A stretch of DNA of 64,000 nt from Liolophura sinensis (Eukaryota; Mollusca; Polyplacophora; Chitonida; Chitonidae): contig NC_088306.1 of NCBI RefSeq assembly GCF_032854445.1, forward strand, positions 21,545,764 through 21,609,763. Direction: 5' to 3'. Below are positions 702-63,909 of the stretch, piece by piece (the stretch's first letter is position 1; every line of letters starts with the position of its first letter). The notes under the pieces are model-generated. The model was not told where the DNA came from. It did no database searches and saw nothing but the letters and a program-made list of their open reading frames with translations. The translations under genes and the position numbers were made by a program.

Positions 702-3700
702 CTATTTACTAACTGAACAATATTTTACTTCCTGGTGAGAGGGAACTTGGCAGATGCCCCGGGAACTCCTGACTATCCGCAGGTTGCTGGAAGACTTTCA
801 CATGTGTGGCCAGAGAGAAAGCCAGCATGAGCTGGACTCAGACTTTTGGGTCATTGCACTGCACTAACACACTAACCATCAGGCCACAGAGGCGACCCAT
901 AACATGCAATATATTACTAAGGATGCCATGTTTTCACAGGCATTTATTTGTCAGAAACTTGACAGAAAAATCTATGCATGGATTAAAATGAAGTTTTGTG
1001 CACAGGTAGGCCTTGGCTCAAGTGATTTGGATGACAAGCAAAATTTTTTGAACGATGCTTTACCATTGCCTGATAGGACCCACATCCATGTTCTCCTGTG
1101 ACTTGTCATTGTGCTTACCAGAGTATTGTCCCTTTAATGTAACTCTTCATACGGCCACGGGTGGCTTGGCTGTAGTTGTGGGAATCTTTACATTTCTAGT
1201 TTCATTTGGTTGTGCTTATTCACTTATTTGATTTATTGTTTTTAATATATGCTCTAGAATTTTTCACTTCACATACAATGATGTTGGTCACATACAGTGA
1301 TGTTGGTCATATACAGTGATGTTGGTCATATACAGTGATGTTGGTCATATACAATGATGTTGGTCATATACAGTGATGTTGGTCATATACAGTGATGTTG
1401 GTCATATACAGTGATGTTGGTCATATACAATAGATATGCAATAGATAAATTGCTAAATTATTCCAGTCCACAATTTGTTCACAAATTTATTTTAAATGCT
1501 CTTTAATACCACCCCTTTCTAGGCATGTAACGATATGGTTCTGTCACGATACGATATGATAGGATACAGGAGTCGGGAGATGACACGTTCACAATACGTT
1601 TATGACACGCCCACTTTATACAGTGCCTTGTCTGGCCATTGGGCTGGAGAATAAATGATTATTCAATTTTACCTAGGTGAAGCCGTGCATATTTTATTAT
1701 TTGGTAGGTATGGTTACTGTAGAATGGAAAATAAAATCACATCACAGTCATTTCAATTTTATAAATGAAAACATAACTTCATTAATCTTATTTGAATCTC
1801 CAAAAATAAAACATAATCAAGTTTCTTTGGTTAAATTAAATAAATCTACCTGGGAATGAGTCATTCTTAATAAATAAAAAAAACATGGCACTACAATATG
1901 TGATAAATGAAATGAAACATATTACCTTATGAGTTTCAAGTCTTATGAATATCAATGAGTCTTCAGTATCAAATTACATTATCGGAAAAAAAGCAATCAA
2001 TTATTCCATGTTTCTCTTCAAAAAGATTAAATGGTCAACATGCACACTCTTCAGCTGTGCTCTCTGAGCACTAACCACATCACACACCGTAGAAAACACA
2101 CGCTCGTTAGGCACAGAAGTGCCTGGGGCCCCCAGGTAGGTTTTGGTGAGAGCAGCAAGCAGCAGATAACTCTGCTCATTGAATTTCCACCAAAGCAGAA
2201 TGTGGAGATCATGTGTGGAGATCGGTGACTCAGATTTGTACCTTGCCCCTTCATCAGTAGCGCAAGTATTGGAAGACTTCCCCGTTACCACTTTAGTTAC
2301 AAAAATGTCTCCAAAAAACATTTCCCATAGCAGTTTTTTTTTTTGCAGAGGGTTCGTACTTTTCTTCATCCTGGCATTCAAGGGACTTGTATTGTGGCCT
2401 TTCACAGAGTGAATATGGAACCTCACATGACAAGTCTGAATCAAATGGTAAGTGTGGAATCTCACATGGTAAGTCCAACAGAGTCTGCAGAGTGGAGGTT
2501 TCAGGATCTGTTTTAATAGCAATCTGAGCTGTGAATCAAATGGTAAGTGTGGAATCTCACATGGTAAGTCTGAGAGTCTGCAGAGTGGAGGTGTCAGGCT
2601 CTGTTTTTATAACAATCTGAGCTGTGAATCAAATGGTAAATGTGGAATCTCACATGGTAAGTCCAACAGAGTCTGCAGAGTGGAGGTTTCAGGCTCTGTT
2701 TTAATAGCAATCTGAGCTGTGAATCAAATGGTTAATGTGGAATCTCACATGGTAAGTCCGACAGAGTCTGCAGAGTGGAGGTTTCAGCATCTGTTTTAAT
2801 AGCAATCTGAGCTGTGAATCAAATGGTAAATGTGGAATCTCACATGGTAAGTCCGAGAGTCTGCAGAGTGGAGGTTTCAGCATCTGTTTTTAATAGCAAT
2901 CTGAGCTGTGAATCAAATGGTTAATGTGGAATCTCACATGGTAAGTCCGACAGAGTCTGCAGAGTGGAGGTTTCAGCATCTGTTTTAATAGCAATCTGAG
3001 CTGTGAATCAAATGGTAAATGTGGAATCTCACATGGTAAGTCCAACAGAGTCTGCAGAGTGGAGGTTTCAGCATCTGTTTTAATAGCAATCTGAGCTGTG
3101 AATCAAATGGTAAATGTGGAATCTCACATGGTAAGTCCGACAGAGTCTGCAGAGTGGAGGTGTCAGGATCTGTTTTAATAACAATCTGAGCTGTGAATCA
3201 AATGGTTAATGTGGAATCTCACATGGTAAGTCCGAGAGTCTGCAGAGTGGAGGTTTCAGCATCTGTTTTAATAGCAATCTGAGCTGTGAATCAAATGGTT
3301 AATGTGGAATCTCACATGGTAAGTCCGAGAGTCTGCAGAGTGGAGGTTTCAGCATCTGTTTTAATAGCTATCTGAGCTGTGAATCAAATGGTAAATGTGG
3401 AATCTCACATGGTAAGTCTGACAGAGTCTGCAGAGTGGAGGTTTCAGGATCTGTTTTTATAACAATCTGAGGTGTGAATCAAATGGTAAATGTGGAATCT
3501 CACATGGTAAGTCCGACAGAGTCTGCAGAGTGGAGGTTTCAGGCTCTGTTTTAATAGCAATTTGAGCTGTGAATCAAATGGTAAGTGTGGAATCTCACAT
3601 GGTAAGTCCAACAGAGTCTGCAGAGTGGAGGTTTCAGGTTCTGTTTTTATAACAATCTGAGGTGTGAATCAAATGGTAAATGTGGAATCTCACATGGTAA

Positions 3701-6700
3701 GTCCAACAGAGTCTGCAGAGTGGAGGTTTCAGGCTCTGTTTTAATAGCAATTTGAGCTCTGAATCAAATGGTAAGTGTGGAATCTCACATGGTAAGTCTG
3801 ACAGTCTGCAGAGTGGAGGTTTCAGGTTCTGTTTTTATAACAATCTGAGCTGTGAATCAAATGGTACATGTGGAATCTCACATGGTAAGTCCGACAGAGT
3901 CTGCAGAGTGGAGGCGTCAGGATCTGTTTTAATAACAATCTGAGCTGTGAATCAAATGGTAAATGTGGAATCTCACATGGTAAGTCCGAGAGTCTGCAGA
4001 GTGGAGGTTTCAGCATCTGTTTTAATAGCAATCTGAGCTGTGAATCAAATGGTTAATGTGGAATCTCACATGGTAAGTCCGACAGAGTCTGCAGAGTGGA
4101 GGTTTCAGGATCTGTTTTAATAACAATCTGAGCTGTGAATCAAATGGTAAATGTGGAATCTCACATGGTAAGTCCGAGAGTCTGCAGAGTGGAGGTTTCA
4201 GCATCTGTTTTAATAGCAATCTGAGCTGTGAATCAAATGGTAAATGTGGAATCTCACATGGTAAGTCCAACAGAGCCTGCAGAGTGGAGGTGTCAGGCTC
4301 TGTTTTAATAGCAATCTGAGCTGTGAATCAAATGGTAAATGTGGAATCTCACATGGTAAGTCCAACAGAGTCTGCAGAGTGGAGGTGTCAGGCTCTGTTT
4401 TAATAGCAATCTGAGCTGTGAATCAAATGGTTAATGTGGAATCTCACATGGTAAGTCCAACAGAGTCTGCAGAGTGGAGGTTTCAGGATCTGCTTTAATA
4501 GCAATCTGAGCTGTGAATCAAATGGTAAATGTGGAATCTCACATGGTAAGTCCGACAGAGTCTGCAGAGTGGAGGTTTCAGGATCTGCTTTAATAGCAAT
4601 CTGAGCTGTGAATCAAATGGTTAATGTGGAATCTCACATGGTAAGTCTGACAGAGTCTGCAGAGTGGAGGTTTCAGGCTCTGTTTTAATAGCAATTTGAG
4701 CTGTGAATCAAATGGTAAGTGTGGAATCTCACATGGTAAGTCCAACAGAGTCTGCAGAGTGGAGGTTTCAGGATCTGTTTTAATAGCAATCTAAGCTGTG
4801 AATCAAATGGTAAATGTGGAATCTCACATGGTAAGTCTGAGAGTCTGCAGAGTCGAGGTGTCAGGCTCAGCTTTAATAGCAATCTGAGCTGTATAAACAG
4901 CATCATGAAGTGCTGCAGCTTTTGTTCCTGTACTGTTGTACACATGGACCCATGTAACATCATCTTCCTGAGTCAACGAACGAAACCTCGGGTCTAAAGC
5001 TGAGCACAGCAGGAGGAAGTCTTGGATTTCATTACCAGTGTAGTGTTTTTTAATATCCTTCCTGACGGCAATTTTGATACTCTGTACAAAAGCAGAGTAT
5101 GTCTCTTCATCCACTGTCATGACTTTTGGTATGACCTGTTTTAACGGACCAATGAGTGACGCTGTAGGATGTCGCTGGCTGCACAGAAGTGTTGTGACTG
5201 CCTTGAGAGACTTTGTAACTCCCACGGCTTCCTCTGCCTAGTTCCCTATCATCCAATCACTTTTAATGAAGAGGGCTGTTATTGTGATTAAGCTTTCTGT
5301 GTCTCGTGATGTCCATCCATCAATGGTGATTGCTATGGCTGTGACTTTGTCTAATTCAGAAATAACTCTGTCTCTCACCTCTGAATACAAACAAGGGATC
5401 ACTTTTTTACTGAAGTGAGGGCGGGAGGTCCTGGTGTCTCTACAAGTCGAGGTTGGTCCTAGCTTTGAATGTAGCGTCTGTGCTAAAGAAAGTTGACATT
5501 TTGGTTTGACTCAGTGCGCAGTCTCCGCTGTTATATCAGGGTGGTGCCTCTTCAGGTGAGTAGACATATTTGTGATACGTCCCGTATATCTGCTAGCGAT
5601 TTTGCAAGTCTGACATATTGTTACCGAGCGGTTACCTGCTAGCAGATTTGTAATTCGATCCCTCGCATGGCTCAGGGCATCAAGTTCTGGACGCGATGCC
5701 ATTTTGGTTGTTGGTCTTTCAGGGAGACCAACAGCCTACTATGGGTCATTTGATTAGTTGTACTGCTGACCAAGAGCCAATTAGAGCAAGGCTTCGGGAA
5801 ACGGGCTGACTTCCGCCGGTAGCCGAAACACAGATTTAAACCTGGCAAACTAAAGATTTGTGAGTTCATTCACACCTTCGCATAATACCTTATACATAGA
5901 CGTTGCACGATTTATTGAGAATAAACCAACCATTATGAAATCTGTATCGTGATACGTGTTTTCGTGTATCCATAGGCATATCGTGGGACAACGAATCTCA
6001 ATTCACCGATATAGTCGTGTATCATTACATCCCTACATTTTCCCCCCAATGATACCAGTGGTATCCAGAATCTATACGCACGGTATTGAAAGATAAGCAC
6101 TTGACCATTTGACAAAACGTGCAGATCACTGTGTGGATTTTGTGCTCAATAATATTTCATTTATGCAGTCAGGTTTATATGAAAGGTAGAGCTTAAGAAG
6201 AGTAGAGCCTAAGAGGAGTAGAGCCTACTGCTCTTCACCACGTGACAAATCATCTAATTCAATAAAGCTGCAACTGGAGACCAATCTCCTGTGGCATGTT
6301 TGACGCTTTACCAGAGTTAACCACAAAAAGCTCAATAATTGTCTGTAAACACAGCTATTTGCCATTCAGAGGACATATCTTACACAAGTGTTCTTGTCTC
6401 AAACAATGTTGGCAAATCTATGGGTGTGATTTGAAGTTAAATTTTTATTTGTTTTATGACACACCTTGAAAAGGCCTACTTATCTGATGCATCAAAAAGC
6501 CACAGCAAACACAGCCAGATTTAACTTTTACTTTATTTCAAAATGTGCTTCTCTTGTAAAGGAAGGTTTATGCAAATTATGTCAAATTGAGTAGTATGCC
6601 ACTTGTTAATAGTAGTGTGTACTCACTTTTTGCTGCAGCTTTCTGATTTTCAAAGCACATCTTGACATTTTCCGCTCTATGATGGACAGAAGTGTGCTGT

Positions 6701-28273: not shown

Positions 28274-28334
28274 ATGGCTGGCGTGAGAAGTTTTTGTCGA
28301 GTTCGTCGTCTGCTAAAATGCAATTTAGTTAATA
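28274..28334 (+). CDS. ACADS: ACADS exon 1, mitochondrial presequence
   Basis: Starts ATGGCTGGC and encodes [20 protein letters not shown]: four Arg, one Lys, no acidic residue, as in matrix-targeting peptides. Donor GTAAGT, phase 1. No upstream in-frame ATG extends it convincingly. Confidence 0.8.
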
Positions 28335-31300
28335 GTAAGTTTTTGTTTTACTCTAGATACTATGTTGCGTTATTTGTCTTTAACTTACCGTCCGTTTCCA
28401 AAAGGAAATAGCATAGTTTCCTCATAATATCCTTCAGTCAGTCATTCCCAGATGTAAACAACCGGCGAGTCCTGTCAGTTGTTTGGTTACACAACTAACT
28501 ACATGTCGAAAGTCCATAGCAGTTTAAGTTTACATTTGAAGGTATTTGAAATGTCTTTAAAACCACTGTTGTTATTGAAGCTTATGATTACCAGTCATCT
28601 TATACATTGTAAGTTCACTCTGCAATGTAAGGTAAAACTGATTTTGTGTACGGTAATAGTCCATCTAGATGCACTAAGTGTGTTGTTTTAAAATTCTGAC
28701 ATTCGTCGTAACACTGAGTCCATCCCTACCTCTGAAAAAAAGATGACGGGGATTTCTTCACATCTCATTCCCACTCATCGCAATCTAAATCACCTCCTCT
28801 GCTCCTTTCTGTGTAATTTTCAGGTGGAATCTCGAATACTATCCTATTGAATTATTATCCTCACAGATCAAACTAATTAAATCACTGCCTTGTTGTTACA
28901 TTGACTGCTGAACTTTGGCGATACCGAATGCCTCACCGTGAACATTGATTTCGAGGTGTCACATGACCTACTGAGTTTTGGCATTTAAATCCACCAGAAA
29001 ACTATTATACTGTAAATGCTTTTTTATTCACAGGCACAAACCTTTGCGGATTGGTAAGAAGACACATTCGCAGGAATCAACTTCCGCAGATCTTAACAGA
29101 ATTTTTGGATTTTTGGGCGACTGATAAAAATGAAATTCAATCTTCAATAAGAAACATCAAGTAATAAAACAACTCAAGCATTTAAGTAATAATGTTATCA
29201 TTTAAACTTGTTAGTACCTGTAAGATGTGGCAAAAATTCTATACAATACAGTAACTTGATCAGACAAAGGAAGTTAATCCTCCTAAGCTTTTAATCTTTA
29301 GGAGACTTTTAATCTTTATAAGACGAAACCCTTACCTGCTGTGTGAGCAAATATTTGTGTCTCTCACTCCGGGAGACTACGAAGGATTAAATATGATATA
29401 AATAAATCCACTGTTTAATTCTCATGCATCAGCAGTGTGAGTGAAACTTTGAGTGAACTGTGACAGATTTGAGTAAATTTCTCAGAAATCATCATTATGA
29501 AAAGGATGTTTGAAGTGCGGAAAGCCCTGAGCGATGTATCGCGCGAGTCGTAAAGGTGGACTGACTGGAAAGCAAGTACAGTAGATAAAAAAACAGCCTG
29601 TCTCATTGTATGCATATAGCGTATCATGTACACACGGCCAGTATAAAACTATCGATTTGTATGTCTAACCGCGGCAATAAATCAACAACAACAACGTCGA
29701 AATGTGTTTGCCACGAAATCCACGAATGTTAGTACCACGCAAACAAAAAGGTGTTTACAGTATATTCATTTGCCATCTGCAAGAACAACTTTAGTCTTCT
29801 TAATTTATTGTGGAAGGGCATAAAAAAGAACATGTATTTTGTGCAGCTAGGTTTGGGTGCCTTCAATGCGGGCCTCATTGAGGTCGGTTCCATCGAGTTA
29901 GAGTTTGGAAGTCTGCGTCACTCCATCTGGAAGGACTAGTACAGCACATATTTTTTTGCATTGCCATGCAAAATTTGACAGGAGCTCTCAGCAGCATGCA
30001 TGTGGCTCACCAGCTGAAAGTAACAACACACTAACGTGCCAAGCAGTACTAAGCCAAGTGATCTGTGACATTTAATGATAGGCCCAAACATCTGTGACTA
30101 TCAGCTCCTGAAAATTAGTTTTAGTAAATTTTATTTGTTATGGCTCATTAAAATGTTTCAATCAGACTTTGAATGTTGTGGTTTATGTCTGTAATCTCTC
30201 AGGGAATGGACATGACAGGTCAATTGTCAGCCTGGTGTCACTTCCAGAAACTCATCAGATGTTACAGAAAACATGCCGAGATTTTGCTGACAATGAACTT
30301 ATTCCGATCGCCGGTCAGCTGGACAAGAATCACACTTACCCCAAAGAGCAGGTAACTGTCTGGCATACAATTGTATTTATTTATTTATTTGTTTTCTTAA
30401 AAAAGCGTTCAAGAATTTTTCACATATATCATGGTTGTCAATTTCATGGGTCTTTTGTGAACAATGAAGAATGAAGATGAGGTAATCTTGAAATGCCCAT
30501 GTCCAAGGCTGGATTGAACTCACACTCTATGTGCCATAGATTGGGCGTTTTACATGTCTGACACATCCTTCTTTTTAAGAATCAGATTTATTTATTTATT
30601 TATTTGATTGGTGTTTTATGCCGTACTCAAGAATATTTCACTTATACGACGGCGGCCAGCATTATGGTGGGTGGAAAACGGGCAGAGCCCGGGGGAAACC
30701 CACGACCATCTGCAGATTGCTGACAGACCTTCCCACTTACGGCCGGAGAGGAAGCCAGCATGAGCTGGGCTTGAACTCAGAGCGACCACATTGGTGAGAG
30801 GCTCCTGGGTCATTACGCTGCGCTAGCATGCTAACCGACTGAGCCACGGAGACCCCCTTTAAGAATCAGAGCTCAGATATACCATTTTCTAAATTTCAGG
30901 TCAAGAAGCCGGGTGGGTATAAGGACTGGTTGGCCCGGTTTCAATATATTTTGACTGGGTAGGGTGTCATGTTTGTTGTCTTCAGCATAATACTTCATTT
31001 GCGGAAGGACTTTGGCAGCATGGTCTTGCCCTGTCACAAGGAGACACAGTATGTGTACACACACGTTATGACTCCTCATTGTCAATGTACAATGTTAAAT
31101 CCCAAGCATTCATTCTTTGATTCTAAAGGCCATTGAAAGAAGAGCAATATGCCGTTGTTGTTGCAGGTGAAGAAGCTTGGTGAGCTGGGGCTCATGTGTG
31201 TGGATGTCCCAGAGGCTGAGGGAGGGACGGGCCTGGACTACCTGGCCTATGCTATAGCCATGGAGGAAATCAGTCGGGGCTGTGCCTCTACCGGAGTTGT

Positions 31301-34300
31301 GATGAGTGTCAATAATGTGAGTTTAAGTACAGGACTTGTCATGAGTGTCAACAGTGAGTCAGTACTGAGTATGTTGGTTGCCATGAATGTCAGTAATGTG
31401 AGTCCAAACTAAGAGTAACGGTCATCTTGAGATTAAAAAATGTGAGTCAAAGCTAAGTATGGGGGTTGTTTTAAGTGTCAACATTGTGAGTCAAAACTGT
31501 ATTGCTGTATTCTGTGTTATGTGTTCATTAATTTATTCAGATAACTATGAAATATAACTACTTAGCATTTCTAAATTGCTTCATTTGCTTCTCTTACAGT
31601 CTCTTTACCTAGGTCCAATTTTGAATTATGCTACTAAAGAACAGAAAGCAAAATATTTAACCCCTTTCTTGGATGGAACAAAAGTTGGTTGTTTTGCACT
31701 CAGTGAACCAGGTATGCATACATGATATCTGCAATTGTTTTTCTTACATGTATATAGGATATATTATGTATTTATGTTTGGTCTGAGTAATGCCTGGCTC
31801 GCGTAGGCTGACAGGAGTAATCTCCCTAGTTCAATCCAGTGGTCCTTGCCTGCCAGGTCATGTGTTCTCCCTTATTACAATGGAGTGATTTTTCACCAGT
31901 GAGGTTGGATGCCTACATGACCTAAGTTAGCATGTTAGTGCAGTACAGTGGCCCATGAACCTCTCACCAGTGCAGTAGCTGTGAGTTCAAATGCATCTCA
32001 TGCTGGATTCCTTTTAAGACTCTAGACTGTACCCGGTTTCTTCCCATGATAATGTTGGTGCCCTATAAGGAAATATTGGTGTAAAACAGCAATCAAAACC
32101 GTATTAAATTTTTTCGAAACGAATCAGAAACGAGGCTATGTATTTGCATGGGAGTATTCTCCCTTGGAGTACTCCAGAAGCGCATGTGTTTGATTGGTAC
32201 ACCTACTCACTGGCTGTACAGTAGTCCTATGACAAGAGGGTTGTCGATTACCTATCCATGATCCAGCTACATGTAGGCTTTGGCCATTCTCTGTCCACGA
32301 AATATTTTTTTCAGTTCTGCATAAGACACACATCAAATAAATAAATAAAAAGTATACATTGTTGAATCTTTACAATTTGCCAATACAATAATACGTTAAA
32401 TGAACTAAAATTTTGCCCATAACAAAATTGCACATTTTGACGGATCCGGAGAGTTCCGTTGATCATAGAAAGGTAATTTGAGCTTTGTTTGGAAGGAAAG
32501 GGGATATCCTACTGGAAAGTGTAAGTTTAAGGATCAAAAGAAATACTTCATGACATTTATTTGCTTCTTTATGTACAATCGGACCAAGTAGCACAGTTGG
32601 TAGAGCGTCCGCTTCATGAGTGGTAGATCCAGGGTCAATCCTGGGTCAGGTCTCACCTAAGACCTTAAAAGAGGAAGCTGTAACTTCCTGGCTTGGCGTT
32701 CAGCATTATGGGGATAGTGCACTGACTGGTTGACGCATATCAGTATAATGACTCTGGTGGGACGACTTAATTGCCTGTGGTAAGTTGTCTCAGTGAAGGA
32801 GCATCAAGGAGGCACATTACAAACACTTTAAGGACTCCTTCGTCGTCATATGGCTGGAAAACTGTTAAGTATGACATTAAACCCCAAGAACACACTCAAT
32901 CACTTTGGATGAAAGTTTAGGTCATTTACTTACTGTGTGTAAGTATTTAAACAAAATGAAACATTGACTTAAACTGATTCTATCCGCCAGGTAACGGAAG
33001 TGATGCAGGAGCTGCCTCCACAACGGCCATGTTGGATGGCAAAAAATGGATCCTGAATGGGACAAAAAGCTGGATAACAAATGGTTACGAAGCAGAGGCA
33101 ACAGTTGTGAGTGCTCAGATGCCAATAGGCTATCTGAAAAACTACATAGTGTCGAAAATTAAACTTTTTACTTGTTTTGGAAATGCTTTTTAGCACATGT
33201 ACTTTTGGTCAGGGGTTTTGTATACATTTATGTATTATGAAATATGTTGTGATGGGAATACTGATAGCAGGCTTTCTTGTCAGAAGTTAATTTGAAAGCA
33301 TCAAAAAGTGGCATTATTGAGATACTGATGTGATAAGATATATTTCAAACTTTTTATTAAAGGTGGAATTTTAGATTATTCTGTGATGTTTATTTCTTAT
33401 TCCTTGATACATGTATGCGTCTGAGATAAAAATACTCACCCTTACTATATAAATGTACATGTAGTAATATTGAAAGCAGTCACCTTTATCACTCAGAGAA
33501 AGGACAGGACTGTTGTTGCACTTTTACTGGGGATGTAATGGTTGTCCATTGAATTTATAAAGAGAAAAACAAATTGATTCCAAATGAAATTTTGTTTGTA
33601 TAAACCATCATGTTTCTATTATTAAGCTTGTATAAGGATCAGATTGTTGAAAGAGGGATGCCAATCTGTTTTTTTACCTGTGTCTGACAGTTACAGTCTT
33701 TGCTATATCTGTTGCAGGTGTTTGCAACGACAGATAAGGCTAAGAAACACAAGGTAAGTTATTCATTTAACAGTCACATCTTAAATTTCAGGCATAGTCC
33801 TACGTTTATGGTCATTTTTGTACAGAGTAAATGCAACAAATAACAAACCAAGTTTAGTTCAAAAGATGCTTTGCTTTGCAAACATGCTAAAAGAGACATA
33901 CTGCCCAAAGAAATTTAAAACTTTTGAGTTGGATCAACTAAATACAAAACTGCATTGCATTTGACTCCTAACTAAAGGGGCCTCTGTGGCTCAGTTGGTT
34001 AGCGCGCTAGCGCAGCGTAATGACCCAGGAGCCTCTCACCAATGCGGTCGCTGTGAGTTCAAGTCCAGCTCATGCTGGCTTCCTCTCCGACCGTATGTGG
34101 GAAGGTCTGCCAGCAACCTGCGGATGGTCGTGGGTTTCCCCCGGGCTCTGCCCGGTTTCCACCCACCATAATGCTGACCGCCGTCGTATAAGTGAAATAT
34201 TCTTGAGTACGGCGTAAAACACCAATCAAATAAATAAATAAATAACTCCTAACTAACATGTAAACAGTATGATTGAAAGGAAATTATAAGTCTAGGTAAG

Positions 34301-37300
34301 CAAAGACGATCTTCCTTTCTGTTGATAATATATTATAAAGTATGTGTTATTCCCAATGATTTGTTTGGCAAAACTGGAATAGGTAGGCCTCATAATTACA
34401 ACTCAGGGCCATGTCTGACATATGAAGTCCGCTGAACATCTCCCATTGTGTGGACAGCAAGGGGAGGTAACCCTGTAAAAAAAAAAAAGCCAACCTTTGG
34501 CCATGTTTCTAAATGTAGCAAATGGAGGGTGAGGATGGTGAAAAGGAAACTTTGGATAAAAACTTGGATAGAAACTTTCCAATAAAGGTTAAACACATCG
34601 GTAGTCACCTGGAAATCTTAACTTTATGTAGATGACGTTTAAAAAAACCGCACAATTTTTTGCCATTGGCATGATGTCTCTTTAAGATTTACACATATGT
34701 GGTTTAGAGTACGCATAAATATTTAACTACAGCAACAGATCAAGTCATTTGTTAGTTATGTGGAAAAGAAATCTGGTTTGTGTCTGGCTCTCTCCAGTAT
34801 CCTTCCCCTATAAACCTGGCCGGAGCCTCTTTTTAAAGAGAAATACTCTTGAGAAGGATATTAAACCACAGTCAAACAAACAATAATTAACATTCATAGC
34901 TGTTACAGAATTTTACCAGCTATACTTTTGTTTTTGGTTTGTAGGGTATTAGCGCATTTCTTGTACCCAAACCCACAGATGGTCTGTCATTAGGAAAGAA
35001 GGAGGACAAACTGGGTATCAGAGCATCATCAACATGTAATCTGATATTTGAGGACTGTCAAATTCCACAGGAAAACATCTTAGGGGAACCAGGAATGGGT
35101 TTCAAAATTGCCATGGTAAGAAAAAGATAAACTTTAAAATGGTAAATAGCACTGATATTTGTAGTCCTTATGGAGACTGTTAATAGGGTACAGCACGGTA
35201 AAAAGCTAAGTTTATAAATATACAGTGTGTGATATCTTTGCAGTAGGGTTTTGATTGAGTAGACCAACAACAGTTTGGTTCACAAAGGAAATAAATTTTG
35301 CATAAGTTTATTTAAATAAATGCTGTCATGTATGGGAAGGGTAGAGTTCAGCTATGTTTTGTGAATGTATTTAATGAGGTGGAGTGGGTACCAAACTCTA
35401 ACCAGTGACCTCTTCTGCCTGAACTATTAAGTCAGTACTCTTCAAAATTGTGGAAAAATTCAGGCAGTAATATAATTAAATGAATAGACCCAAGAATATT
35501 CCTGGAAAGGGATTTAGACATGTTCTGATGGATGTGTAATTTACAAAATATCTCTTTTTTAATTTTTGTTTTAGCAAACATTAGACGCTGGTCGCATAGG
35601 TATAGCTAGCCAGGCATTGGGGATAGCCCAGGTAAGTGGGAAGCCAGTGTTTGATTTCAGAGTTGTCTCATACAATAAATGTTACAAATGCAACAGAGGC
35701 CTTCGTTGGCTTCAACTATTATAAAGTGGTTGCTTGCTGCCAGGATCAGGCCCATGTTTGCCAATGGGATTGCTTGTTTGAATGGAGCTCTCGCTGCTTG
35801 GGCTAGGGCTCTTAGCCAGGAGGTTCGTCAGGTACCTGGTGGGCGGTGATTTATTGCCATTTTGGCTTCCTCCCATAAACCCAACACTGGCCAATGTATG
35901 TGAAAAGTCATGACAAAAACATTACTGATCATTCGGTAGAGTGGTGGGGCTTGAAACTGTAAGTTATGAATCCGAGCCTCACACGAGCCAATTTTTTCCA
36001 CTGGTCTAGAGAGAGTTATTTTGGTGTCGGCAGTTCAATATAATGTTGTATATTGATGCATAACTGATCAGTGGCATTAATTATATTTTCCAGGCTTCCA
36101 TTGACAGTGCTGTTGAATATGCTGCCAAGAGAAATGCATTTGGAGCACCAATAACAAAACTACAAGCTATACAGGTAAAATAGTGTGGTTATTGTCATGG
36201 GTGGAAAGGTTTGTCAGAAACCTGTGGATGATCGTGGGTTTTTCCCTCGGGCTCTGTCTAGTTTCCACTCGCCATAATGCTGGCCACCGTCGTAAGTGAA
36301 ATATTCTCGAGGACGGGGGAGAACATAGATCTAAATAAATAATTTAAATTAAATAACGTGTTTATTTTGGAAAGGCATTACAGTTAACAGTTGAGTCAAG
36401 TTGATAATGTCTACTGGTTTGGAATTCACGAGTTATACTTTTTTTTAGGTCATTTGATCTCATTTTGCTCAGCCTCAGTTATTTCAAGAAGATTGTTTGG
36501 AATCATAAAGGAAGTTACAGGAAGCTTTACAATTGCAGCGAACAATTGAAAAGTGAAAATAAACATTTTGTTTGTGTCCAGATGAAGCTGGCTGACATGG
36601 AAGTCAAAGTTCACAGTGCACGGCTGCTGACCTGGCAGGCTGCTGTTCTCAAGGACAAGGGACTCAGTTTTACAAAGGTTTGTAAATTGTAAAGGTGAAG
36701 AATTCTTGTTTATGGAATAAAGCAACAATCAAATAAATGAATAAATTCATGAAAGTTTACCACTGCACTGTTACTTGATTCAGGAAGTTCCTGTATGCAT
36801 CTACATCTATATACATGTACATATACATGCAAATCTGAATTCTGTAAGCTTATGTCATCTCAACCACTTTCACTTTTGCTTTACCTCCTACCAGGAAGCT
36901 GCCATGGCCAAGTTAGCTGCCTCAGAAGCTGCCACGTTCTGTGCTCATCAGGTATGTTTGTTCTCTGGGAACTGTTAATAGAAAATAATTAACCATCTGC
37001 GTTTATGCTCACATTCACAAAACATTCACTACGGTGTCATTATGGAGAGTGAAAAAAAAAAGGCCATTGATGAAGCTTGCCTGGCCATGTGTGCAGGCAG
37101 TCTAAAACCATTTGTCACTATGATGTGCATATCTGTACATCAGGTTGGTGGGTTACATGTGCCACCATGAGTACATCAGGCTGGTGGGTTACATGTGCCA
37201 CCGTGAGTACATCAGGTTGGTGGGTTACATGAGCCACCATGAGCACATCAGGTTGGTGGGTTACATGTGCCACCATGAGTATATCAGGTCGGTTGGTTAC

Positions 37301-40300
37301 ATGTGCCACCATGAGTACATCAGGTTGGTGGGTTACATGTGCCACCATGAGTACATCAGGTTGGTGGGTTACATGTGCCACCATGAGTACATCAGGTTGG
37401 TGGGTTACATGAGCCACCATGAGCACATCTGGTTGGTGGGTTACATGTGCCACCATGAGTACATCAGGTCGGTTGGTTACATGTGCCACCATGAGTACAT
37501 CAGGTTGGTGGGTTACATGTGCCACCATGAGTACATCAGGTTGGTTGGTTACATGTGCCACCATGAGTACATCAGGTTGGCAGGTTACATGTGCCACCAT
37601 GAGTACATCAGGTTGGTGGGTTACATGTGCCACCATGAGCACATCTGGTTGGTGGGTTACATGTGCCACCATGAGTACATCAGGTTGGTGGGTTACATGT
37701 GCCACCATGAGTACATCAGGTTGGTGGGTTACATGTGCCACCATGAGTACATCTGGTTGGTGGGTCACATGTGCCACCATGAGTACATCAGGTCGGTTGG
37801 TCACATGTGCCACCATGAGTACATCAGGTTGGCGGGTTACATGTGCCACCATGAGTACATCAGGTTGGCGGGTTACATGTGCCACCATGAGTACATCAGG
37901 TTGGCGGTTTACATGTGCCACTGTGAGTACATCAGGTCGGTTAGTTACATGTGCCACCATGAGTACATCAGGTTGGTGGGTTACATGTGCCACCATGAGT
38001 ACATCAGGTTGGTGGGTTACATGTGCCACCATGAGTACATCAGGTTGGCGGGTTACATGTGCCACCATGAGTACATCAAGTTGGCGGGTTACATGTGCCA
38101 CCATGAGTACATCAGGTTGGTGGGTTACATGTGCCACCATGAGTACATCAGGTTGGTGGGTTACATGTGCCACCATGAGTACATCAGGTCGGTTGGTTAC
38201 ATGTGCCACCATGGGCACATCTGGTTGGTGGGTTGGTTACATGTGCCACCATGAGTACATCAGGTCGGTTGGTTACATGTGCCACCATGAGTACATCAGG
38301 TTGGCGGGTTACATGTGCCACCATGAGTACATCAGGTCGGTTGGTTACATGTGCCACCATGGGCACATCTGGTTGGTGGGTTGGTTACATGTGCCATCAT
38401 GAGTACATCAGGTCGGTTGGTTACATGTGCCACCATGAGTACATCAGGTTGGCGGGTTACATGTGCCACCATGAGTACATCAGGTTGGTGGGTTACATGT
38501 GCCACCATGAGTACATCAGGTTGGTGGGTTACATGTGCCACCATGAGTACATCAGGTTGGTGGGTTACATGTGCTACCATGAGTATATCAGGTCAGTTGG
38601 TTACATGTGCCACCATGAGTACATCAGGTTGGTGGGTTGGTTACATGTGCCACCATGAGTACATCAGGTTGGTGGGTTACATGTGCCACCATGAGTATAT
38701 CAGGTCGGTTGGTTACAGGTGCCACCATGAGCACATCTGGTTGGTGGGTTGGTTACATGTGCCACCATGAGTACATCAGGTTGGTGGGTTACATGTGCCA
38801 CCATGAGTACATCAGGTTGGTGGGTTACATGTGCCACCGTGAGTACATCAGGCTGGTGTGTTACATGTGCCACCATGAGTACATCAGGTTGGTGGGCTAC
38901 ATGAGCCACCATGAGTACATCAGGCTGGCAGGTTACATGTGCCACCATGAGTACATCTGGTTGGTGGGTTACATGTGCCATCCCTTGACCCATGAAAACA
39001 TGAGTGTATCAGTAAACAACAGTCTGTTAAATCAGGTCAGATCATGAAGTAATGTTTTTTGGATTTTTTATGAGAAAAGTTGCAAAATTTATTTGTGCTT
39101 TGTTAATGTGGATTGTCTAGGCTAGAAAATTCACCTTCAGGGATTGGTGAGAAAGGATTTTATGTTGTCATACATGTACAGATGGGGAGGTTCTGTGCTT
39201 TGCTCCTCACACAAGCCTACAAAATGGTTACACATCTGATGGGGTAATGCAAATACAAGCATTTTTTGAATAAAGTTAAAGAAAACAGTAGTAACAATCA
39301 TGCCTGAATCAAATATGTTTGTTTCTGAAATAAAGAATATGGATAAAGTCCCCAAAAATGAATATCACAAGCGAAATACACGCTATCCAATTCTCTGTCT
39401 TGGAAAATTGTGGAAGCAACCATTGTCTCGTTGGATTATCTGCCATGGACCTGAGGTCTTTAATTCCCAAAGTAAATCAAATGAGTCAAGCCCTAATGCT
39501 CAAACAGGCAATGGTTGGGAGAGTGAAAATTGAAGCAATATGATTGGCCAAAAGTAAGACATCAACTGAGGAATGGAGTCAACATTTGGTTGTATGGCAT
39601 ACCCTATTTCTTCTAATATTAGGGACACCTGGCTTGCTCATTTAGGTCAGTATATATGTAATTGTAGCAGGAATATTGAGTTTCTCTCACGTGGTTAGAC
39701 CATCTAATGAACAGCATACTCATAATTATCTTTATTTTTCCAAAGGGTGGTAGAGAACTGTAATATTCTTCTATTCTACACCACTAATATGTCCTAAAAA
39801 TTAGAAGAATTAGGGTACACATAAGAAATTTTGTTGACTATTATTGGTTTTATGAAGACCTTGTTTTCAGCAAACAGCATGTTCTTCTTTAATAATACAA
39901 AGACGTGATCTTTGAATTTTTCTTTCCTTTAACGATTGAATTCATTTGGAATTAACTGGTTGTGTTTTCATTGCAGTGTATCCAAATCTTGGGTGGTATG
40001 GGTTAGTAACAGAGATGCCAGCCGAGCTGGAATTAACTGTGGTTGTGTTTTCATTGCAGTGTATCCAAATCTTGGGTGGTATGGGTTAGTAACAGAGATG
40101 CCAGCCGAGCTGGAATTAACTGTGGTTGTGTTTTCACTGCAGTGTATCCAAATCTTGGGTGGTATGGGTTAGTAACAGAGATGCCAGCCGAGCTGGAATT
40201 AACTGTGGCTGTGTTTTCATTGCAGTGTATCCTAATCTTGGGTGGTATGGGTTACTTAACAGAGATGCCAGCCGAGCTGGAATTAACTGTGGTTGTGTTT

Positions 40301-40881
40301 TCACTGCAGTGTATCCAAATCTTGGGTGGTATGGGTTACATAAGAGAGATGCCAGCTGAGCCGGAATTAACTGTGGTTGTGCTTTCACTGCAGTGTATCC
40401 AAATCTTGGGTGGTATGGGTTACGTAAGAGAGATGCCAGCCGAGCTGGAATTAACTGTGGTTGTGTTTTCACTGCAGTGTATCCAAATCTTGGGTGGTAT
40501 GGGTTACATAAGAGAGATGCCAGCCGAGCTGGAATTAACTGTGGTTGTGTTTTCACTGCAGTGTATCCAAATCTTGGGTGGTATGGGTTAGTAACAGAGA
40601 TGCCAGCCGAGCTGGAATTAACTGTGGTTGTGTTTTCACTGCAGTGTATCCAAATCTTGGGTGGTATGGGTTACGTAAGAGAGATGCCAGCCGAGCTGGA
40701 ATTAACTGTGGTTGTGTTTTCATTGCAGTGTATCCAAATCTTGGGTGGTATGGGTTACGTAACAGAGATGCCAGCTGAGCGCTATTACAGGGATGCTAGG
40801 ATAACAGAAATTTATGAAGGCACCAGTGAGATTCAACGCCTTGTCATAGCTGGTAATCTGCTGAAGGAGTACGGTGTGTGA
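28274..40881 (+). CDS. ACADS: Short-chain acyl-CoA dehydrogenase, mitochondrial (complete, 12 exons, 412 aa)
   Basis: Exons 28274-28334, 30203-30351, 31167-31316, 31600-31711, 32991-33106, 33718-33753, 34945-35115, 35575-35631, 36094-36174, 36582-36677, 36895-36951 and 40729-40881 join in frame to 412 codons plus stop, the length of human SCAD. The enzyme is an FAD flavoprotein of the mitochondrial matrix that makes the first oxidation of butyryl-CoA-size substrates in beta-oxidation and passes electrons to ETF. Visible are an Arg-rich acid-free presequence, acyl-CoA dehydrogenase signature 1 ([12 protein letters not shown], about 152-163), signature 2 (QILGGMGY, about 365-372) and the catalytic Glu392 in IYEGTSEIQ. 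The intron before the last exon holds two tandem arrays, one of which multiplies the last acceptor. A polyadenylation signal follows at 41402. Confidence 0.95.
28335..30202. other. ACADS intron 1, no recognised feature
   Basis: CpG-containing near its start, otherwise no repeats or exon-like frames recognised. Confidence 0.5.
30203..30351 (+). CDS. ACADS: ACADS exon 2
   Basis: Acceptor CTCTCAG, donor GTAACT; completes the split codon and encodes the N-terminal helical domain ([36 protein letters not shown]). Confidence 0.93.
30587..30857 (-). mobile_element. SINE family 1, full length, 13-bp target duplication
   Basis: Same structure as the 34-kb copy on the opposite strand; TTTAAGAATCAGA flanks it at 30574-30586 and 30858-30870. 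Confidence 0.92.
31167..31316 (+). CDS. ACADS: ACADS exon 3
   Basis: Fifty codons in phase 0 ([40 protein letters not shown]). Acceptor TTGCAG, donor GTGAGT. After the donor the sequence GTGAGTNNNANNN with ATGAGTGTCAA recurs three more times to about 31500, a small degenerate repeat of the exon's own 3' end. Confidence 0.95.
31600..31711 (+). CDS. ACADS: ACADS exon 4
   Basis: Encodes [20 protein letters not shown] then [18 protein letters not shown], the first half of acyl-CoA dehydrogenase signature 1. Acceptor CTTACAG, donor GTATGC, phase 1. Confidence 0.95.
31927..32099 (+). mobile_element. SINE family 1, degenerate
   Basis: CATGAACCTCTCACCAGTGC, TGTGAGTTCAAATGC, GTACCCGGTTTCTTCCCA and GTGTAAAACAGCAATCAAA in the expected order. 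Confidence 0.65.
32577..32903 (+). mobile_element. SINE family 2 (CACT-tailed), full length
   Basis: tRNA-like head with A box GCACAGTTGGTAGAG and B box region GGTAGATCCAGGGTCAATCC. The body contains GAGGAAGCTGTAACTTCCTG and the tail TGTTAAGTATGACATTAAAC, with CACTC-rich end. Lies in ACADS intron 4, 88 bp before exon 5. Confidence 0.82.
32991..33106 (+). CDS. ACADS: ACADS exon 5
   Basis: Completes signature 1 ([10 protein letters not shown]) and continues with [20 protein letters not shown], the flavin-contacting WIT strand of the middle beta-domain. Acceptor CCGCCAG, donor GTGAGT. Confidence 0.95.
33718..33753 (+). CDS. ACADS: ACADS exon 6 (36-bp micro-exon)
   Basis: Twelve codons, [12 protein letters not shown], flanked by GTTGCAG and GTAAGT; phase 0 at both ends. 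Too short to be found as an open frame, but needed to join exons 5 and 7 in the SCAD order. Confidence 0.9.
33976..34243 (+). mobile_element. SINE family 1, full length, 12-bp target duplication
   Basis: tRNA-derived head with A box TGGCTCAGTTGG and B box GAGTTCAAGTCC (34054-34065). The body follows (GGGTTTCCCCCGGGCTCTGC), then the GAGTACGGCGTAAAACACCA tail and AAAT repeats. ACTCCTAACTAA flanks it at 33964-33975 and 34244-34255, a perfect duplication. Reference copy for this family. Confidence 0.93.
34945..35115 (+). CDS. ACADS: ACADS exon 7
   Basis: Fifty-seven codons: [40 protein letters not shown] and on to GFKIAM, the end of the middle domain. Acceptor GTTTGTAG, donor GTAAGA. Confidence 0.95.
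35575..35631 (+). CDS. ACADS: ACADS exon 8
   Basis: Nineteen codons, [19 protein letters not shown], the first helix of the C-terminal domain with the [10 protein letters not shown]-type family motif. Acceptor TTTTAG, donor GTAAGT. Confidence 0.95.
36094..36174 (+). CDS. ACADS: ACADS exon 9
   Basis: Twenty-seven codons: [20 protein letters not shown] then TKLQAIQ, carrying the R-x-x-F-G flavin-site motif. Acceptor TTCCAG, donor GTAAAA. Confidence 0.95.
36199..36345 (+). mobile_element. SINE family 1, 5'-truncated
   Basis: GTGGATGATCGTGGGTTTTT, CATAATGCTGGCCACCGTCG and GTGAAATATTCTCGAGGACG. Confidence 0.78.
36582..36677 (+). CDS. ACADS: ACADS exon 10
   Basis: Thirty-two codons: [20 protein letters not shown] then [12 protein letters not shown]. 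Acceptor GTGTCCAG, donor GTTTGT. Confidence 0.93.
36895..36951 (+). CDS. ACADS: ACADS exon 11
   Basis: Nineteen codons, [19 protein letters not shown], with the AMAKLxASE motif of the family. Acceptor CTACCAG, donor CATCAG|GTATGT. The 36-bp array begins about 190 bp downstream and its unit contains CATCAGGTTGGT. Confidence 0.94.
37139..38980 (+). repeat. 36-bp minisatellite in the ACADS intron 11, about 50 copies
   Basis: The unit is roughly GGTTACATGTGCCACCATGAG plus TACATCAGGTTGGTG, with variants (GAGTACATCAGG or GGGCACATCTGG; GGTCGGTTGGTTAC). A few units carry an extra GGTT. Since 36 is a multiple of three, several frames on both strands stay open for over 300 codons; these are not genes. 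Confidence 0.97.
39950..40790 (+). repeat. 83/84-bp tandem array made of the ACADS exon 12 acceptor and exon start, ten copies
   Basis: Acceptor AG|TGTATCC recurs with exon-like starts at 39977, 40060, 40143, 40226, 40310, 40394, 40478, 40562, 40645 and 40729 (spacing 83 or 84). Each unit holds a pyrimidine-rich GTTTTCAYTGCAG, then codons for [10 protein letters not shown] and TEMPAEL, then AATTAACTGTGGTT. Copies 1, 2, 3 and 8 read TTAGTAAC (stop after GGMG); copies 4-7 and 9 stay open. 84 bp is 28 codons, so open copies read through in frame. Confidence 0.95.
40729..40881 (+). CDS. ACADS: ACADS exon 12 (terminal, catalytic Glu)
   Basis: Fifty codons plus TGA. Begins [20 protein letters not shown] (signature 2) and contains [18 protein letters not shown] with the catalytic Glu392. 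Its TTTTCATTGCAG acceptor and first 50 or so bases are the last and only complete copy of a ten-unit array; only this copy continues into the [10 protein letters not shown] sequence. Confidence 0.95.

Positions 40882-48646: not shown

Positions 48647-63909
<15,263 letters not shown>

Follow-up and report, generated by a model that had tools for sequence, protein, structure and literature searches.

Tandem copies of the last ACADS splice acceptor in the chiton Liolophura sinensis, a probable mirage-type minisatellite

The last intron of the short-chain acyl-CoA dehydrogenase gene (SCAD, ACADS) of the chiton Liolophura sinensis ends in ten head-to-tail copies of its own 3' splice site, each of them followed by the beginning of exon 12. 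This array is most probably (probability of about 0.8) a mirage-type expansion whose upstream copies are removed with the intron, and an instance of something more widespread in this chiton. An ordinary tandem-repeat expansion would have started from a segment that happened to straddle the boundary between intron 11 and exon 12; the nine upstream copies would normally be removed within a longer intron, the spliceosome treating the terminal exon as one unit and preferring the acceptor nearest the exon body. Only the copy adjacent to the exon has kept the coding sequence. Repeated junctions were also found in a sample of other genes of Liolophura, where they concern donors as well as acceptors, so that the ACADS array would belong to this wider set. 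Positions are those of the window, i.e., the whole stretch of 64,000 nucleotides that was analysed.

The host gene and its repeated acceptor

The whole coding gene extends from 28274 to 40881 on the plus strand (12 exons, 412 aa). Exons 2 to 12 are intact and open, with GT-AG introns, and exon 1 (28274-28334, plus strand), which resembles a targeting peptide, is predicted. The best PDB match is a short-chain acyl-CoA dehydrogenase (1jqi, 6.8e-157, with a query devoid of exon 9), which confirms the assignment to ACADS made in an earlier sequence-only reading. Exon 11 (36895..36951, plus strand) ends with the donor CATCAG/gtatgt and is followed by the 3777-bp intron 11 (36952..40728, plus strand), which holds both a 36-bp array and the decoy acceptors, and then by the coding part of exon 12 (40729..40881, plus strand; stop codon at 40879-40881). 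The NCBI protein of L. sinensis, here P0001, has 373 aa, is 100% identical to the translation, starts at a Met located inside exon 2, and lacks exon 1; its gene model may rest on protein homology. This protein uses the tenth acceptor.

Among the best 120 of 7999 scored proteins, only P0001 exceeds 81% identity and no second L. sinensis form of SCAD was found. A search of the genome (E up to 0.001) found no second SCAD gene, the other matches sharing at most 58% identity over short pieces or 42% over the length. Two long uninterrupted acyl-CoA dehydrogenase matches, L006 and L007, are neighbours on contig C4; they are 42% and 40% identical to SCAD and intronless across the match, and their frames are open over 433 and 331 aa, with one stop in the second.

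The array occupies positions 39948 to 40781 of the plus strand (period 84, 96% matches according to TRF, and direct reading). Its unit joins the end of intron 11 (29-31 nt with TTAAC, a pyrimidine tract and AG), which reads GGAATTAACTG..CAYTGCAG, to the first 52-53 nt of exon 12. The nine decoys (39948..40697, plus strand) precede the authentic 3' splice site of copy 10 (40698..40728, plus strand; AG at 40727-40728), which is the one used by P0001. The AG is kept in 10/10 copies and ends at 39976, 40059, 40142, 40225, 40309, 40393, 40477, 40561, 40644 and 40728, i.e., with a spacing of 83 or 84 bp. The sequence-only reading had described ten tandem copies of the acceptor and exon start of the last ACADS exon, nine of them extra and 83 or 84 bp apart, in an array that begins in intron 11 and stops in exon 12 just before ERYYRD; the acceptor positions and both boundaries agree with this description. 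When the 29-nt exon start was searched in the window with up to 3 mismatches allowed, ten matches were obtained (nine exact, one with 1 mismatch), against a mean of 0.00 in 100 shuffles. A whole-genome search with 199 bases of array and exon, which skips common words, found no second place.

The copies are similar in length (81 bp for copy 1, 83 bp for copies 2, 3 and 8, 84 bp for the others) and vary at 11 columns in a mosaic pattern, with a mean difference of 3.84 of 84. No difference separates copies 3 and 8, whereas copy 10 differs from each other copy at 3-5 columns, ten units being few for comparing the edge copies with the others. Close to its left edge, copy 1 is devoid of two bases that all the other copies have (again few, n=10), and it also lacks one base in its exonic half. 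This last shortfall, located after GGGTTA, is shared by copies 1, 2, 3 and 8 and turns GGT TAC into GGT TAG, which accounts for the TAG that had been noticed right after GGMG in four of the ten copies (at 40004, 40087, 40170 and 40589). Copies 2 and 10 are identical across the whole intronic half of the unit and the last 18 nt of the intron, AG included, are common to copies 1, 2 and 10. The spliceosome indeed faces, as had been proposed, ten near-identical 3' splice sites.

Translation from each acceptor gives very unequal products. Copies 1, 2, 3 and 8 would add nine residues before TAG. Copies 4 to 7 would be read through by steps of 28 residues, as had been announced, but they all meet the TAG of copy 8, and every acceptor from copy 1 to copy 8 would thus truncate the protein. 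Only copy 9 would give a full-length protein with one 28-residue insertion, and only copy 10, which alone is joined to the full exon, the normal protein. The earlier expectation that an early acceptor leads either to truncation or to repeated halves thus stands for its first part, whereas the second is restricted to copy 9. Given the position of the catalytic Glu, eight of the ten acceptors would truncate SCAD before its catalytic region.

The exon-start peptide is not repeated as uniformly as had been thought, since copies 5, 6, 7 and 9 encode REMPAE rather than TEMPAE and copy 5 ends with PAEP. At this position, the 120 listed homologues mostly carry Thr (62) or Ser (49), more rarely Lys (5), Ala (3) or Arg (1). 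The Gln of CIQ is found in 120/120 of them and is replaced by Leu in decoy copy 4; the stretch from CIQ to ERY shows no length change in the same 120/120 homologues, P0001 included. Judging from these comparisons, constraint is apparent in copy 10 only, which would be expected of an array whose other copies are intron.

Choice of the splice site and rival readings

In ACADS, copies 2 and 10 have identical intronic halves and cannot be told apart by local sequence; what decides between the acceptors must therefore be their position or the remainder of exon 12. RNA accessibility was considered as a discriminator and rejected, the modelled mean unpaired value of copy 10 (0.45) being equal to that of copy 2 and close to that of copies 4 and 8 (0.44); with a shorter window, the local structure model predicts the highest unpaired value for copy 1. 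For short introns, the closest pair of splice sites wins (Reed and Maniatis, via PMC9225289), and when the flanking introns are long, preference goes to the sites that lie nearest to each other across the exon, introns over 200-250 nt being held to favour exon definition (PMC9225289). Given the 3777 bp of intron 11, exon definition would favour copy 10, although data on human acceptors leave this less than certain: the upstream site has a general advantage, which exon definition lessens without clearly reversing it (PMC9225289). This upstream advantage counts against an account based on exon definition, and so does the terminal position of exon 12, since no donor follows that could define this exon. 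The tolerance of mirages would probably stem from the advantage that exon definition gives to the copy nearest the exon. By analogy, the best direct precedent for normal splicing would be the acceptor mirage BflGb6 of amphioxus.

It could also be supposed that splicing makes real use of the decoys, with a substantial part of the transcripts joined to copies 1 to 9 and giving truncated or insertion-bearing SCAD, and with an array length that tunes the enzyme dose. Such use would benefit from the fact that stops located in a last exon escape junction-dependent decay, and the intron end common to copies 1, 2 and 10 is compatible with it, as is the overall advantage of upstream acceptors in human competition data (PMC9225289). 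However, the 120 listed proteins include one form only from this species, spliced to copy 10, and coding constraint is fully maintained at copy 10 in the single SCAD gene that was found; the decoys have diverged in their exonic halves. Furthermore, amphioxus mirages are reported with regular splicing, which Adh3 data and the RT-PCR of the authors suggest to be undisturbed (PMC3087553). We thus consider this reading as unlikely, although the decoys may be used at some level. No support was found for an effect of the array on splicing, nor for the importance for the protein that had been attributed to the early acceptors.

The array could, in another reading, act as a nursery for new exons or introns. 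The hexamer GTAAGA, which ACADS exon 7 uses as donor, is present in the exonic half of copy 6 (40424..40429, plus strand), where copy 10 has GTAACA, and in copy 9 (40675-40680, plus strand); with the upstream AG, it brackets in both copies a potential in-frame microexon of 30 nt that could be spliced in. The model of intron gain proposed for amphioxus mirages needs such a pair of sites (PMC3087553). However, the intron from copy 9 to copy 10 would measure 54 nt, when the other introns have at least 217 nt from intron 2 on and the predicted intron 1 is also longer, and the added residues would fall inside the motif from CIQ to ERY, whose length is constant in the listed homologues. No record of such a form was found, and this reading is very improbable.

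An error of assembly, in copy number or in the repeat itself, is the least probable of all these readings. The published genome, first released under the name L. japonica and then corrected to L. sinensis (PMC12441733), comprises 609.5 Mb in 632 scaffolds and was obtained from PacBio HiFi reads at a coverage of only 14X, which leaves some room for it, but the mean HiFi read of 8347 bp spans the array (PMC11068029). Since its 834 bp are far below read length, misassembly is unlikely; besides, the mosaic differences between copies and the presence of similar arrays at other genes on other scaffolds argue against it. A mirage-type minisatellite whose upstream copies leave with the intron is the preferred reading, and three features of the array fit it: the unit spans the exon-intron boundary in each of the ten copies, its 81-84 bp lie within the 10-160 bp of the amphioxus cases (PMC3087553), and the gene is otherwise intact (its exon 1 being predicted), with the authentic boundary at the exon-side edge.

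Repeated junctions elsewhere in the genome

The window contains a second mirage, located at a donor of an ATG16-like gene on the minus strand (51987..52750). Its 45-bp unit, made of the exon tail (..VTSLDLTP) and gtcagtttgtac, is found in 18 copies that are 35-46 bp apart and keep GT in 18/18 cases. The authentic exon with the repeated donor encodes a part of the WD40 region (52715..52888, minus strand); its boundaries were inferred visually from the reading frame, the splice signals and the match to 5nuv, Autophagy-related protein 16-1, which is the PDB match of the gene (1.2e-74). The 36-bp array of intron 11 (37135..38980, plus strand, about 51 copies) was examined as a possible old mirage of the exon 11 donor and rejected, because its likeness to this donor is within chance (best match of 8 bp, score of 16, reached by 355/4555 control windows). 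A 95-bp x 26 array (window positions 2437-4892) lies between minus-strand pieces whose motif resembles that of a hAT-type transposase; repeats thus seem to arise elsewhere too.

Kinesin genes provided a sample that was not chosen for repeats. From 132 kinesin-domain exon matches, 42 regions were planned and 25 analysed, i.e., 250,000 bases with 99 exon matches and 198 exon ends, all from one gene family. They contain 67 arrays that cover 41,914 of the 250,000 bases. Arrays whose unit includes a kinesin exon junction were found in 6/25 regions and at 6/198 ends, with two acceptors and four donors; the exon boundaries are visual estimates based on reading frame and splice signals, and copy counts include the authentic copy. 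The acceptors are those of L018 (39 copies, AG kept in 30) and L020 (13 copies, AG kept in 12), and the donors those of L022 (28 copies, GT kept in 25), L027 (46 copies, GT kept in 40), L031 (2 copies, GT kept in both) and L036 (30 copies, GT kept in 25). When the motifs of these junctions were searched in 24 other 10-kb loci, no more than 1 match was obtained per equal length.

Some other arrays of these regions deserve mention. The L022 array also contains a longer, re-duplicated piece of exon. A 122 bp x 11 array of L031 (928-2316) combines a coding piece resembling a coiled coil with CAGGTAAGT and is possibly another repeated exon boundary, one of a kinesin stalk; it was left out of the count. 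The array of L035, three in L037, the one at 7028-8043 of L027 and a microsatellite of L025 are only near an exon and were not counted either.

The presence of arrays at junctions is thus shown, while the evidence that repeats prefer splice junctions, or are targeted to them, is weak. Array ends lie near kinesin exon ends in 9 cases versus 4.40 expected by circular shift (301/10000 shifts reach 9), a statistic that mixes spanning and neighbouring arrays, since only four of the 9 were seen to span a junction on inspection and the spanning arrays of L022 and L027 are left out. The junction-spanning arrays number 6 versus 2.62 under uniform seeding (P = 0.051). The motif GGTRAG occurs in 9 repeat units versus 2.43 for 57 arrays (0/500 shuffles), and in a larger set of 71 arrays 11 times versus 3.34, 9/119 anagrams being as enriched; for the same 57 arrays, the longer MAGGTRAG shows no clear excess (1 versus 0.56, reached by 130/500 shuffles). 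It may be conjectured that chiton mirages form a standing, junction-biased system independent of that of lancelets, in which 2-46 near-copies of the local splice site accompany a few percent of exon ends, the exon-proximal donor or acceptor is reliably taken, and some copies mature into exons or introns, but this whole picture is doubtful at present.

Relation to known systems and meaning for chiton genes

Mirages were described in amphioxus at BflGb6, BflGb9 and Adh3 (PMC3087553; founding Adh paper in Nucleic Acids Res 2002, via the same source), and also at troponin C and PGBD5 (PMC3902484). In BflGb6, the 3' end of an intron and the start of exon 2 are duplicated in units of 150-160 bp, six and three in two haplotypes; AG or GT is kept by many but not all amphioxus units (PMC3087553), and edge copies escape homogenisation (PMC3087553, PMC3902484). 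Like these cases, the ACADS array is a tandem repeat in the size range of minisatellites, with a unit that straddles the limit between intron and exon. It differs from them by its host, a mollusc and not a cephalochordate, by its location in a last exon and by the in-frame stops of four decoys; in the kinesin sample, unlike the amphioxus cases, a junction can reach 46 copies.

Intron gain by tandem genomic duplication (AGGT) likewise copies splice signals inside a gene (PMC4974935, PMC3443670), whereas the ACADS copies lie within an existing intron. As with the closely spaced tandem acceptors known as NAGNAG, several AGs compete in one intron of ACADS, but they are 83 or 84 bp apart and each copy has its own TTAAC and tract. 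With such a spacing, the choice would fall in first-step recognition, which concerns sites at least 20 nt apart (PMC9225289).

The term mirage was not found outside cephalochordates in the literature searched, which mostly lacks subscription papers, so that other reports may exist in print; two further papers that matched the word use it in another sense. No hit for tandem repeat or minisatellite was obtained in a chiton genome paper (PMC12005716). The accessible parts of an earthworm metallothionein study report intronic minisatellites and exon duplication but no repeated junction (PMC12783039), and those of a paper on Conus gene introns only mention microsatellites. The kind is already known from lancelets, and its presence and frequency in chitons are not described in the literature searched, as far as its available text goes.

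How the spliceosome chooses among near-identical sites is a long-standing question that was classically probed by artificial duplications (Reed and Maniatis, via PMC9225289). Liolophura offers natural competitions between splice sites, in which 2-46 copies take part. The test is sharper with acceptor mirages, whose authentic site is transcribed last and is the farthest across the intron, so that a rule of first come or of intron proximity predicts mis-splicing, whereas exon definition predicts the exon-proximal site. The donor mirages of the same genome provide the mirror control. As RNA-seq data from five tissues are deposited (BioProject PRJNA973839; PMC11068029), this question could be answered without new samples. 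Mirages appear unexpectedly frequent in a mollusc, as judged from one gene family and the window. This widens the phenomenon beyond lancelets, the sole hosts named in the literature searched, and is a warning for gene predictors and variant callers applied to mollusc genomes.
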